Positions 25,157-29,735 of a DNA stretch of 43,892 bases are shown one piece after another. The position numbers were made by a program, and so were the translations under genes. Within the stretch, counting starts at the first letter, position 1, and the number at the start of each line of letters is the position of its first letter. The notes below the pieces were generated by a model. The model did no database searches and was not told where the DNA came from. It saw only the letters and a list, made by a program, of their open reading frames with translations. The DNA comes from Bacilli bacterium (GTDB taxonomy: Bacteria > Bacillota_I > Bacilli_A > RFN20 > CAG-826), in assembly GCA_017479485.1 (NCBI GenBank), contig JAFVCC010000051.1, positions 1 through 43,892 of the forward strand, written 5' to 3'.

Positions 25157-26224
25157 ATGCCAAACCGATTAACCCAAGAACAACTGAATAACGTCCATTA
25201 CGTCTCCATCAGCGATTACGTGAACCGCATGGATGCCATTGAGAATTTCGAAGACAAGATGGCCTTTACCACACGTTATCTCCTCTCCTATGGGGCGGAG
25301 CAGCGTGATGTTTCCTTAGAGGAAGCCATCCATATCGCCAAAGTCAAGATCGCCGACGCTTCCGCGGCGTTGCGTAAGGACATGATCATGGTCCCAGACG
25401 AAGCGGTCAATCCTACCTTAGACGCAGTGCAAGACGCCGCGAACCGCCGCTTCATGATCGACCCGATCGGCTACCTCAAAGATCAAGCCGCCGATATGCT
25501 CCACCAAGAGGAAGAGAAGGGGGTCACCGATGCCAACAGCCAGAAGGTCGCCGACCTGCAGCTTATGTACGCGGTCTTATCCAATGACTTCGACCATTCC
25601 ATGTCCAATAAGGTCAGCGCGCTCGACGTCGAGCCTACTTCGCGCGACGTGAAAGCCCGCCTCAACGCCAAATTCGGCGGACGTTTGGAAAATGCCTATG
25701 AAGCCACCAAGCCCGGCGTCCTCGCCAAGATGTTCAACAAATACTCGACGGCTTACCATAACCTCGACGAGACCTATAAGGCCTTCAATAACCCGGACCA
25801 CGCCCTCTATGGCGACATGAATTCCCTCGATAAAGCCGCGAAGGAATACCTCCAGCACGTCTTCCCTTCCTGGAACCCGAACGATGGGCTGATGAATCCT
25901 TCCCTCATCTCCCGCCACCTAAAAGGCACCCAAGCCTCTCGCGCGCTATTTAGCTACAACATCCTCAAAGCCACCGCCGAGCAACGGGAATGCGAAAAAG
26001 CCTATGATTGCATCATCAGCAGCAACCTCCAAGCCCGCGCCCTCGAGGAAGCAAACGCCGGCGATGAAGTGCTAAACCAAGCGGATGGAAATGCTGCATT
26101 CCAGCAAGGCCTACAAGAAGACGTGAATGACCTTGACCAGGCCCAAATCGAGGAAGACTACCACCAGAACTTCGCCGACGTCCCCGAGGAGGAAGTTGAA
26201 AACGACGTTCCCGCAGTGGAATAA
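25157..26224 (+). CDS. Unrecognised cytoplasmic protein, first of two tandem paralogues
   Basis: 355 residues, soluble, mostly helical by composition, no signal or membrane segment. AAGGAGGT lies 8 bases before the ATG. It shares with the next gene an N-terminal block (LTQEQ...YVSISDYVNRMDAIENF, TRYLLSYGA, EEAIHIAKVKI.DASA.LR), a middle YLK block, and a core RLNAKFGG...STAYHNLDETYKAFNNP followed by DHALYGDMNSLDKAAKEYL. The C-terminus is acidic (EEEVENDVPAVE). I do not recognise the family and see no catalytic motif. The conserved core is a good target for a remote-homology search. It has its own terminator, so the two paralogues are separate units. Confidence 0.8.
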   Translation: MPNRLTQEQLNNVHYVSISDYVNRMDAIENFEDKMAFTTRYLLSYGAEQRDVSLEEAIHIAKVKIADASAALRKDMIMVPDEAVNPTLDAVQDAANRRFMIDPIGYLKDQAADMLHQEEEKGVTDANSQKVADLQLMYAVLSNDFDHSMSNKVSALDVEPTSRDVKARLNAKFGGRLENAYEATKPGVLAKMFNKYSTAYHNLDETYKAFNNPDHALYGDMNSLDKAAKEYLQHVFPSWNPNDGLMNPSLISRHLKGTQASRALFSYNILKATAEQRECEKAYDCIISSNLQARALEEANAGDEVLNQADGNAAFQQGLQEDVNDLDQAQIEEDYHQNFADVPEEEVENDVPAVE

Positions 26225-26338: not shown

Positions 26339-27418
26339 ATGCCAAAATTAACGAAAGAGCAAATCACGAAATCCCAATACGTCTCGATGGCCGATTTCTG
26401 CAATAAAGTGGACCAAATCGAGAACTTCGACGAGAAGGTGAAATTCGCGACCAACTACCTCCTTTCCCATGGGGCCAATGGAGCGGAAACCGACTATTCC
26501 TTCCAAGAAGCCGTCCATATCGCGCGGATGAAGCTCATCGACGCTTCGGCGAAGCTCCGCGACAAGATCTTCAACGACGAGGACGGACCCGACCCCGCCG
26601 ACCTTTTTATCGATGAGGACGAATACGCGGTCAATCCTTATGCCGAGGAGGAAAAAGACGACATTGAAAACGAGTTCTTCATCGGCCACCCCGCCGAATA
26701 CCTCAAAGCCAAAGCAGAGAAATATGCGAAAGAGCTAAACGAGAGGGAAATGCTCGTCAACGAAGAACTCTTCTTCCGCGACAACTGCACCCGCCTCGCG
26801 AGCGAATTGACTCCCGCGACGACGCACGAGATTCTGCAAAAAGAGGCCAAGAAGATGCCGGTGTTCGACATCACCGCCCGCATGGAAGTCAAATACGGTG
26901 GCAAAGAAGGACTCAAAGAGGCCGAAAAGCTCATCGCCCCGAGTTTCGTCACCAAGCTCTTTGGCACCCGTTCCACCGCGGGGAAGAACTTCGATGAAGT
27001 CTACGCTGCCTTCCATAACCCCAACCATGTCCTCTATGGAAATCTCGATGCCCTAGAAATCGCGACGCAGCAATACGTCGACTACAAAGACGCGACAAAA
27101 GGCACCGCCGAACGCCTCGCTGGCCTCGCCGTAAAGGAACCGAAAGAAGGGTTCGCATTGAGACTCCTTGATGCGATCAAGGACCAAAAGGCCAATAATG
27201 AAATCTTTGAGACCGTCGTTGGTGGCTGCGCGAACAAGAAGCTTACTGCCGAAAAAGTCGAGGCAATCAAAGGACCTGAACCCGTGGAACAGCAAGAGAA
27301 GGTCCCCCTCGTCCTCGACCTCGATGGCGAGGACGAAGAATACGAAGAAGAGGAATCGATGGAAAGCGAAGAAGAACTCGAAAACGAAAACGAGGTCAAT
27401 AACGATCCAGAGATCTAA
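26339..27418 (+). CDS. Unrecognised cytoplasmic protein, second tandem paralogue
   Basis: 359 residues with AAGGAGG before the ATG. Clear relative of the gene at 25157: LTKEQ...YVSMADFCNKVDQIENF, TNYLLSHGA, QEAVHIARMKLIDASAKLR, then EYLKAKAEKYAKEL, and the core MEVKYGG...STAGKNFDEVYAAFHNP followed by NHVLYGNLDALE. The C-terminal ~35 residues are almost all Glu/Asp/Asn/Ser and must be disordered and strongly acidic. No membrane segment or known motif. The shared blocks NPxHxLYGxxxxL and IENFxxK are the best family signature. Two copies side by side with separate terminators suggest an old local duplication kept for different partners or conditions. Function unknown. Confidence 0.8.
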   Translation: MPKLTKEQITKSQYVSMADFCNKVDQIENFDEKVKFATNYLLSHGANGAETDYSFQEAVHIARMKLIDASAKLRDKIFNDEDGPDPADLFIDEDEYAVNPYAEEEKDDIENEFFIGHPAEYLKAKAEKYAKELNEREMLVNEELFFRDNCTRLASELTPATTHEILQKEAKKMPVFDITARMEVKYGGKEGLKEAEKLIAPSFVTKLFGTRSTAGKNFDEVYAAFHNPNHVLYGNLDALEIATQQYVDYKDATKGTAERLAGLAVKEPKEGFALRLLDAIKDQKANNEIFETVVGGCANKKLTAEKVEAIKGPEPVEQQEKVPLVLDLDGEDEEYEEEESMESEEELENENEVNNDPEI

Positions 27419-27703: not shown

Positions 27704-28180
27704 ATGAAAAAGCTCATCCTGATGGCTGGCGTCGCGGGTTCTGGCAAATCCACCTGGAGCCGCGCTTACGCTAAGGAACATCCCAATACCTTCGTCATCG
27801 ATACCGACGACACCCGGAAGTCCCTCACGGGCTCATACCTTGTTTTCACCGACCCCGTGACCCTCTCTTACGATGAGATGATCCGCCAAGCCAACGAAAT
27901 CCTTGCTCGGGAGGAGGAATGCACGGTCATCATCGATAGCACCTTCCTCACCGACGAGCGGAGGCTCTATTTCCTCTCGCGTCTCAAAGGCTATGACCGC
28001 CTCGAGCATTTCATGGTCAAATTCCATGACTATTCCGTCGTCTTCGAGCATAACAAGACGCGGCAAAAGGACAAATGGGTCCCCGATGAAGTCATCGAGA
28101 AGATGATTCAAAGATACGAAAACCCTTCACCCGAGGTGGAGAAACTCTTCGATAAGATCACGATCGAATATTGGAACTAA
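27704..28180 (+). CDS. P-loop kinase, AAA/polynucleotide-kinase-like
   Basis: 158 residues. Walker A GVAGSGKST at 9-17, then VIDTDDTRKSL (a DxD element as in T4 polynucleotide kinase and zeta-type kinases), EECTVIIDSTFLTDERR (Walker-B-like strand), and an arginine-bearing lid helix with NKTRQKDKWVPDEVIEKMIQ. The family transfers the gamma phosphate of ATP to nucleic-acid ends, small molecules or sugars. The length fits a single-domain kinase with no phosphatase or toxin-specific parts. AAGGA lies rather far (12 bases) before the ATG. Single-gene unit with its own terminator; it precedes the Rpn nuclease locus. Substrate is unknown. Confidence 0.85.
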   Translation: MKKLILMAGVAGSGKSTWSRAYAKEHPNTFVIDTDDTRKSLTGSYLVFTDPVTLSYDEMIRQANEILAREEECTVIIDSTFLTDERRLYFLSRLKGYDRLEHFMVKFHDYSVVFEHNKTRQKDKWVPDEVIEKMIQRYENPSPEVEKLFDKITIEYWN

Positions 28181-28181
28181 C

Positions 28182-28218
28182 GCCACGGTCTCCCCTTAGC
28201 CTCCGTGGCTTTTCCTTG
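28182..28218 (+). terminator. Intrinsic terminator after the kinase
   Basis: GCCACGG (28182-28188), 14-base loop, CCGTGGC (28203-28209), TTTTCCTTG. Confidence 0.75.
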
Positions 28219-28309: not shown

Positions 28310-29176
28310 GTGGCCCGAAAGAAACTAAAAACGACGCTAAACATCGAAGACTATGGTCCTCACCCGTTTTGCCTGATGGACGACTACGCCATGACCGTCG
28401 CCTTCCGGAACAATTGCCCTGCGGTGAAAGAGGTGCTCGCGCCAATCCTTGGCCGAAATGACTTTACCGTCAAATCGGTCGTCACCCAAAGAGCCTCGCT
28501 TCTCCCGCAACTGCGCTCAGTCATCTTTGATTGCTTGATCGAATTCAAGGACGGGTCGCTCGTCGACGTGGAGATGCAAAACGAACTCTCGGGGATGAAG
28601 AAGGAGCGCCTCGCCCTATATTTTCATCACCTCGCCCTCAATGCCGCAAAGAAGGGGAAGGAATACGACCCGAATCGACCCGTTATCCTCATCGTGATCT
28701 GCCGGGGCGATATGTTTCACCATGGCGAGCCGCTTTACGAGGCGCAAATATGCGTCAAAGGACATGGCGACGTCATCGCGTCAAACCAACGGATCATCGT
28801 CGCCGACGCGCTTCATCAGGACGCTTCGACGGAGCTTGGCCGGCTGATGGCTGACCTGACTTGCGTCGATCCCGGACAAATGCACAACGCGCACTTACGC
28901 GGGGCGCTAGAGATGATACAATCAAAGAAAGGGAGGATCACCATGAACGAAGCTCTAAGTCGCGACATCGACCGACTGGTGCAAGAAGCCACCATGCAAG
29001 CCAAGCGGAAAGCCCTTAAGGAAGGCGAGAAAAAAGGCGAGGAAAAAGGCGTTCGGAAAGGAATGGTACTAATGGTTTTGAAACTGTTCCGCGCCGGCAA
29101 GATGACCGAATCCGAAGCCATGGAGGAGCTCGGCGTTTCCCAGGAAGAGTTCGAGCGCCTGCTTTCGAGCAACTGA
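28310..29176 (+). CDS. Rpn-family PD-(D/E)XK nuclease (putative transposase family) with internal start
   Basis: 288 residues; GTG start with TGGAGGT 7 bases before. Front two-thirds are the Rpn/PDDEXK_2 nuclease: residues D74 and E88-M-Q90 in DVEMQNE form the D...ExQ active site, followed by the family's LALYFHHLALNAAKKGKEYD and PVILIVICRGDMF stretches. Rpn proteins cut DNA, promote RecA-independent recombination and act in phage defence. The last 77 residues are a separate charged helical module that ends in a helix-turn-helix-like LFRAGKMTESEAMEELGVSQ. A strong ribosome site, GGGAGG, lies 6 bases before the in-frame ATG at 28943, which would start exactly that module. Two free-standing copies of the module follow at 29215 and 29478. 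Related Escherichia coli rpn genes are known to make a short inhibitory protein from an internal start. Confidence 0.88.
   Translation: MARKKLKTTLNIEDYGPHPFCLMDDYAMTVAFRNNCPAVKEVLAPILGRNDFTVKSVVTQRASLLPQLRSVIFDCLIEFKDGSLVDVEMQNELSGMKKERLALYFHHLALNAAKKGKEYDPNRPVILIVICRGDMFHHGEPLYEAQICVKGHGDVIASNQRIIVADALHQDASTELGRLMADLTCVDPGQMHNAHLRGALEMIQSKKGRITMNEALSRDIDRLVQEATMQAKRKALKEGEKKGEEKGVRKGMVLMVLKLFRAGKMTESEAMEELGVSQEEFERLLSSN
28943..29176 (+). CDS. Predicted intragenic short Rpn protein (antitoxin-like C-terminal module)
   Basis: 77 residues in the same frame as the end of the Rpn nuclease, beginning MNEALSRDIDRLVQEATMQ. The reason to call it is the ribosome site AAAGGGAGG at 28928-28936, with 6 bases to the ATG, better than that of the full-length gene. 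The two downstream free copies use the same ribosome site and start at the equivalent residue. By analogy with the E. coli Rpn short forms, it would bind and block the long nuclease. It consists of an opening helix, a Lys/Glu/Gly-rich variable middle and a conserved LFRAGKMTESEAMEELGVSQ end. Translation from this site is inference, though well supported by the duplicates. Confidence 0.65.
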   Translation: MNEALSRDIDRLVQEATMQAKRKALKEGEKKGEEKGVRKGMVLMVLKLFRAGKMTESEAMEELGVSQEEFERLLSSN

Positions 29177-29214
29177 TCCGTTCCCCATCACGATCAAAGA
29201 AAGGGAGGACCACC

Positions 29215-29436
29215 ATGGACGAAACTCTAAGACGCGATATCGACCAGCTGCTGCAAGAAGCCACCATGGAAGCTGCCATGAAAGCCGGCTTGAAAGCCGA
29301 GCAGAAAGCCATTAAGAAAGCAACCATCGAAACCGTTTTGAGGCTATACCGCGCCGGCAAGATCACCGAATCCGACGCCAAGGAGGAGCTCGGCGTTTCC
29401 CAGAAAGAGTTCGAGCGCCTGCTTTCGAGAAACTGA
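29215..29436 (+). CDS. Free-standing Rpn short protein, copy 1
   Basis: 73 residues: MDETLRRDIDQLLQEATMEA, an Ala/Lys-rich middle, then LRLYRAGKITESDAKEELGV and a SQKEFERLLSRN end. It matches the last 77 residues of the Rpn nuclease but has no nuclease domain. Ribosome site GGGAGG lies 6 bases before the ATG, copied with the unit. It starts 38 bases after the nuclease stop, so it is read from the same message. Probably an extra antitoxin or oligomer partner of the long protein. A truncated relic of a once full-length second nuclease is the alternative, but the retained ribosome site, intact frame and correct start position argue for a working small protein. Confidence 0.75.
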   Translation: MDETLRRDIDQLLQEATMEAAMKAGLKAEQKAIKKATIETVLRLYRAGKITESDAKEELGVSQKEFERLLSRN

Positions 29437-29477
29437 TCCGTTCCCTCATCACGATCAAAGAAAGGAAGGGGGCCACC

Positions 29478-29735
29478 ATGAACGAAGCACTAAGGCGCGA
29501 TATCGACCGGCTGGCGCAAGAAGCCGTCAGGAAAATCGAGCGGAGAGTCCTTAAGGAAGGCGAGAAAAATGGCAAGAAAATAGGCAAGATAATAGGCGAG
29601 AAAAGAGGCTTTCAGAAAGGAACGGTCCTAACGGTTTTGAGGCTATACCGCGCCGGCAAGATCACCGAATCCGACGCCATGGAGGAACTCGAAGTTTCCC
29701 AGAAAGAGTTCGAGTACCTGCTTTCGAACAACTGA
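29478..29735 (+). CDS. Free-standing Rpn short protein, copy 2
   Basis: 85 residues: MNEALRRDIDRLAQEAVRKI, a longer Lys/Gly/Ile-rich middle (EKNGKKIGKIIGEKRG), then LRLYRAGKITESDAMEELEV and a SQKEFEYLLSNN end. It begins 41 bases after copy 1. The ribosome region AAAGGAAGGGGG is a changed form of the GGGAGG of the other two units and lies 5 bases before the ATG. Compared with copy 1 the middle is longer by about 12 residues, while both ends are nearly the same. This pattern suggests selection on the ends and free change in the linker, or specialised pairing through the middle. The 254 bases after its stop contain no other gene until the rimP promoter. Confidence 0.75.
   Translation: MNEALRRDIDRLAQEAVRKIERRVLKEGEKNGKKIGKIIGEKRGFQKGTVLTVLRLYRAGKITESDAMEELEVSQKEFEYLLSNN

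Follow-up and report, generated by a model that had tools for sequence, protein, structure and literature searches.

The gene analysed here is, judged by its sequence, an Rpn toxin-antitoxin gene with a putative internal start like those that give rise to RpnS in E. coli and C. difficile, and the locus is best read as a toxin-antitoxin system of known type that carries a tandem pair of register-shifted free RpnS genes, the copy number being its less usual element. The gene lies in the window, i.e. the whole 43,892-nucleotide stretch of DNA under analysis, which comes from a gut bacterium, one of the Bacilli known from metagenomes. As the most likely role of the free RpnS of the window, though with chances no better than even, we regard that of RpnS of altered specificity and a store of exchangeable modules, and not that of additional cognate antitoxins. 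According to the scheme that we propose, RpnL would be the full-length nuclease, whose C-terminal RpnS would also be made alone from the internal start, and the RpnS unit would have been duplicated downstream to yield two free RpnS genes, in the arrangement of E. coli rpnE-ypaA but paired. The free modules, having one repeat fewer and two repeats more, would have a partner specificity other than that of the window nuclease, and recombination of a free module into the toxin gene would change the toxin and the internal antitoxin in one step. We infer the operation of such a scheme in the host organism, and with it the role of the free proteins. The features on which the argument turns are the following:

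28182 to 28209, + strand: hairpin followed by a T-rich tail, likely terminator of the upstream gene (z -4.4)
28310 to 29176, + strand: rpn gene (RpnL), GTG start, 288 aa, Rpn-type nuclease (PF12784)
28931 to 28936, + strand: internal ribosome site GGGAGG, 6 nt ahead of ATG 28943
28943 to 29176, + strand: intragenic RpnS module, 77 aa, with a four-residue-repeat helix and a helical tail
29203 to 29208, + strand: ribosome site GGGAGG of free copy 1
29215 to 29436, + strand: free RpnS copy 1, 73 aa, with 4 residues (one repeat) fewer in its helix than the internal module has
29464 to 29472, + strand: variant ribosome site GGAAGGGGG of free copy 2
29478 to 29735, + strand: free RpnS copy 2, 85 aa, with 8 residues (two repeats) more in its helix than the internal module has
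29571 to 29594, + strand: near-identical tandem 12-nt units GGCAAGAAAATA GGCAAGATAATA, corresponding to the two extra four-residue repeats of copy 2

The original prediction that the gene encodes an Rpn nuclease is borne out by the Pfam search, in which RpnL scored 36.4 bits against PF12784 (cut-off 27.4), a nuclease domain of Rpn families (COG5464, recombination-promoting nuclease/intragenic antitoxin); against TIGR01784 it scored 49.0 bits (E 7e-13), just below the cut-off of 52.1. The PD-(D/E)XK-type motif reads FDCLIEF...VDVEMQ, with residues D86, E88 and Q90 invariant and D74 nearly invariant among relatives. Unlike the E. coli Rpn proteins, which belong to the Transposase_31 (YhgA-like) Pfam family, the window nuclease gave no match to that family in the Pfam search and matches PF12784/TIGR01784 instead. 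A PDB fold search with the nuclease returned no significant match, the weak ones including EndoMS and XisH-type proteins, and a phmmer search of the PDB with the 77-aa internal module found nothing. An AF2 model of RpnL was made, and in the predicted structure models the RpnS modules appear helical. By analogy with other Rpn proteins, for which this behavior has been published, RpnL would be toxic through DNA cleavage and would be blocked by its short form.

Within the gene, the in-frame ATG at 28943 with its strong GGGAGG ribosome site, which the original prediction had singled out together with the 77-residue module, is indeed present and represents a candidate internal start. The homologous internal ATG is preceded by AGGAG in one relative (L004) and GGGAGGT stands at the same place in another (L007). 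The C-terminal module begins with a helix that bears a variable number of four-residue GxxxG repeats, each encoded by a 12-nt unit, as in other Rpn proteins.

These features acquire meaning in the light of the work of Zhong et al. 2023 (PMC10327210), whose main text describes the C-terminal domain of E. coli Rpn proteins as an antitoxin made alone from an internal start, a start that is also seen in a C. difficile rpn gene, and a first helix of this domain in which the number of four-residue repeats varies. RpnS is described there as dimerising via the repeat-bearing helix and forming a 2:2 complex with RpnL, and RpnCL as being blocked only by RpnCS of equal repeat number, an unmatched number abolishing the blocking; this repeat-number rule rests on one protein, RpnC, and one insertion. 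The same text reports free RpnS "as a separate gene", namely ypaA 3' of rpnE and a second rpnCS 3' of rpnC, the detection of the ypaA product (RpnES) by immunoblot in E. coli, and the gain, loss and fusion of free RpnS genes between E. coli strains.

Downstream of the window nuclease the whole unit, from the ribosome site through start and coding part to the stop, is repeated twice, with DNA identities of 75-79% and within-locus blastn E values of 5e-66 and 5e-60, far beyond chance. The prediction of two intact frames of 73 and 85 residues thus stands, as does the repetition of the ribosome site in so far as copy 1 retains GGGAGG, copy 2 having the variant instead. The free copies share 64-69% protein identity with the internal module, and the lengths of the internal module, copy 1 and copy 2 (77, 73 and 85 aa) differ by shifts of -4 and +8 residues that fall in the repeat-bearing helix and correspond to -12 and +24 nt at the DNA level. 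As separate open reading frames homologous to the C-terminal module of their neighbor, each with its own start and ribosome site, they have the form of genes of the ypaA type. A separate antitoxin family, UPF0175 (PF03683), was considered for the modules and rejected, since the match is marginal and exceeds the cut-off in copy 1 only (28.3 bits versus 27.9); a frame-broken nuclease remnant was likewise rejected, given that frames, starts and ribosome sites are intact.

The closest described counterpart is E. coli rpnE-ypaA, where an rpn gene with an internal start, which is putative in the window, has directly behind it a free RpnS that possesses an identical ribosome site of its own and a repeat number that differs from the linked one (0 versus 1 in K-12, whose RpnE is annotated as inactive), whereas the window has a tandem pair of free copies with dN/dS near 1. 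In the rpnC and downstream rpnCS of some E. coli strains, compared here by their published description, a free RpnS has also arisen independently, out of the rpn gene that it accompanies, the free copy being single there and double in the window. The original prediction knew of no description of tandem free copies, and this has to be qualified: free RpnS genes are published for E. coli rpnE (ypaA) and rpnC, while the main text of Zhong et al. 2023 (PMC10327210), its supplementary data aside, makes no mention of a tandem pair, and two more paired loci emerged from our survey.

Relatives were searched, along the lines that the original prediction had proposed, for Rpn genes accompanied by small genes consisting of the C-terminal module only, the survey covering about 110 Rpn-bearing loci of the same class plus one further batch. 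Of the 107 unique closed Rpn genes whose downstream sequence extends to 500 nt or more, about 19 are followed by a copy of their own 3' module, as recognised by DNA similarity and irrespective of an open frame; every one of these copies is an open frame and none is broken. The whole set contains 27 free copies, which are spread over 24 loci of Bacilli and include one that lies upstream of its nuclease. When helix length is compared with that of the neighboring toxin's own module, 23 of the 27 free copies differ and 4 are equal, each shift being a multiple of four residues in a range from -32 to +28; these shifts (of the -4/+8 type) were read by hand from alignments, automatic net length differences including end gaps, and the surveyed loci of any one genome are not independent. 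The genus of the window itself provides an independent case of a shifted free copy (+8, at L006). Tandem free pairs occur at L035 (G555, same class), with shifts of -4 and -4, and at L157 (G505:C2, about 1310-2805), where both helices are 28 residues shorter than the toxin's module (-28,-28). Both loci resemble the window in that an Rpn gene is followed by two free RpnS frames shifted in multiples of four, and differ from it in being distantly related, in having both free copies in one register and in showing a dN/dS of 0.18-0.37. At L154 (G505:C13, - strand) an RpnS-like free frame whose repeat helix is greatly extended (about +28) lies upstream of its Rpn gene.

The same discordance holds in E. 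coli, where the repeat numbers of linked rpnE and free ypaA modules are 0/1, 5/1, 5/2, 1/4, 8/4 and 6/2, so that all six distinct combinations are mismatched. Mismatch alone is no more frequent than would be expected if repeat numbers drifted independently; the mismatch nevertheless argues against upkeep of the free copy as an antitoxin to its neighbor.

Comparison of E. coli strains clearly points to recombination between free and linked RpnS modules, the alleles being compatible with either direction for each event. In strains with two copies the toxin ends in IPNCH or a similar tail and the free copy in LAANNH, whereas in strains with one copy the free-type tail sits on the toxin. The one-copy strain L139 shares an identical N-terminal stretch of 715 nt with the two-copy strain L132, and yet has the tail of the free copy and two repeats in place of one; L127 and L128 are clean recombinants that pass from linked-type sequence on the left to free-type sequence on the right within the shared module; and the one-copy alleles are scattered over the N-terminal tree. 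Owing to the gene-within-gene design, such recombination changes the toxin and the intragenic antitoxin together. A related observation comes from paralogous loci in two other genomes (L027 and L050 in G243; L065 and L072 in G508), in which the linked tail type differs from the free tail type and the start of the unit is near-identical, as in E. coli rpnE/ypaA.

In the window the free copies repeat the 3' end of the toxin gene in direct orientation and could therefore recombine into it, but the locus is shared by no close relative, and a module swap consequently cannot be seen; a site-pattern test for mosaicism on the three modules was not decisive, with several tail changes common to copies 1 and 2 as against the internal module. 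Polymorphic toxins of the CDI and Rhs kinds keep displaced "orphan" C-terminal tips downstream that are able to recombine into the toxin gene. The likeness of the window to these is one of analogy, with no homology claimed, and unlike them the window has no delivery machinery and has a module that doubles as antitoxin and toxin tail.

To assess selection, free copies were compared with one another, which keeps constraint on the toxin out of the estimate. Free-free dN/dS was 0.17-0.37 in four Bacilli genomes (p <0.01 in 5 of 6 comparisons) and 0.04-0.28 for most pairs of E. coli ypaA alleles, and outside the window, in these Bacilli and in E. coli, the free copies are evidently maintained as proteins by purifying selection. 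In the window copies no purifying selection was seen, free-free dN/dS being about 1.0 and that of internal versus free modules about 0.75-1.05 (about 0.75-1.1 among all three modules), values that rest on few changes (about 7-10 synonymous per pair) and imply that the window copies may be drifting. In a neutral simulation with about 18 substitutions, each frame stayed open with a chance of 0.36-0.39 and both with a chance of about 0.14; open frames by themselves are thus weak evidence for real genes.

That the copies are decaying duplicates, left in tandem by slippage or recombination and now drifting without constraint, is a rival reading for which both the dN/dS of about 1 among the window modules and the neutral chance of two open frames speak. 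We hold it to be unlikely all the same, because start, ribosome site and stop have all been retained, the length changes are of -12 and +24 nt, the dN/dS of free copies is well below 1 both in E. coli and in four further genomes of Bacilli, and broken copies are absent from the DNA-level matches of the survey. Another reading, whereby the free copies are made, block the adjoining nuclease and raise the antitoxin dose, was implicit in the original prediction of three antitoxin-like proteins per nuclease. The intact window frames with their good ribosome sites, the production of the homologous ypaA/RpnES in E. coli (main text of PMC10327210) and the purifying selection on free copies elsewhere would suit it, but both window copies are off-register, as are 23 of the 27 surveyed copies and all six E. 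coli combinations, and in RpnC the blocking was lost when the repeat numbers did not match (ibid.). With modules one repeat below and two repeats above the toxin's own, the copies are most likely not spare antitoxins for the window nuclease; the claim of three antitoxins is doubtful, the more so as no purifying selection is seen in the window, and such a function of the copies seems improbable to us. Less probable still is that free RpnS of other lengths act as tuning subunits, pairing with RpnL or the internal RpnS in mixed dimers that weaken or sense the nuclease rather than block it, e.g. as an activation trigger: the dimerisation of RpnS via the repeat helix and the 2:2 RpnL-RpnS complex (PMC10327210, main text) would allow for it, whereas nothing specific to the window points there.

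The preferred reading of altered-specificity RpnS and exchangeable modules may be extended, tentatively and with distinctly less confidence, to free RpnS arrays as a store for specificity switching, in which modules of other repeat number, retained by selection downstream of the toxin gene, would recombine with the 3' end of that gene and thereby shift the register of toxin and intragenic antitoxin together, while free RpnS of the old register would linger as protection. In Rpn systems the fast-varying repeat number determines the specificity of the antitoxin; if free copies are indeed kept off-register and swap with the toxin's module, this would explain how the specificity of such a gene-within-gene pair can change without killing the host.

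As to its surroundings, the stable hairpin ends the upstream gene, and rpn and the two copies therefore look like one transcription unit, whose transcript would start between about 28210 and 28310. A promoter scan found sites no more numerous than in shuffled sequence; a TACAAT-like stretch lies 5' of the internal start. PADLOC gave no hit with the full-length Rpn protein, leaving the locus without assignment to anti-phage defence, and no relative of the window Rpn or of the L006 Rpn was found among viral contigs. The scanned neighbors of rpn are mostly housekeeping, transport, repeat or Pfam-negative proteins. Directly upstream of rpn lies a gene for an AAA_33/zeta-toxin-like P-loop kinase (27704-28180) with the strong hairpin at its end, and two adjacent genes further upstream (25157-26224 and 26339-27418; 355 and 359 aa), which have similar starts and are apparently paralogous, gave no Pfam match above the cut-off.

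Only 4 of the 224 genomes of the family, that of the window included, gave a match, and the genus-mate that carries the nearest relatives, "Bacilli bacterium RGIG8459", derives from water deer abomasum. A congener (G006) harbors many divergent Rpn genes (L005, L008, L010-L012, L014 and L015), several of which are cut by contig ends in or near the C-terminal repeat, which suggests that these repeats break the assembly in that genome. Among genome contigs, the nearest Rpn relatives outside the genus (L143 and L144) belong to an uncultured Spirochaetaceae bacterium, hinting at transfer.
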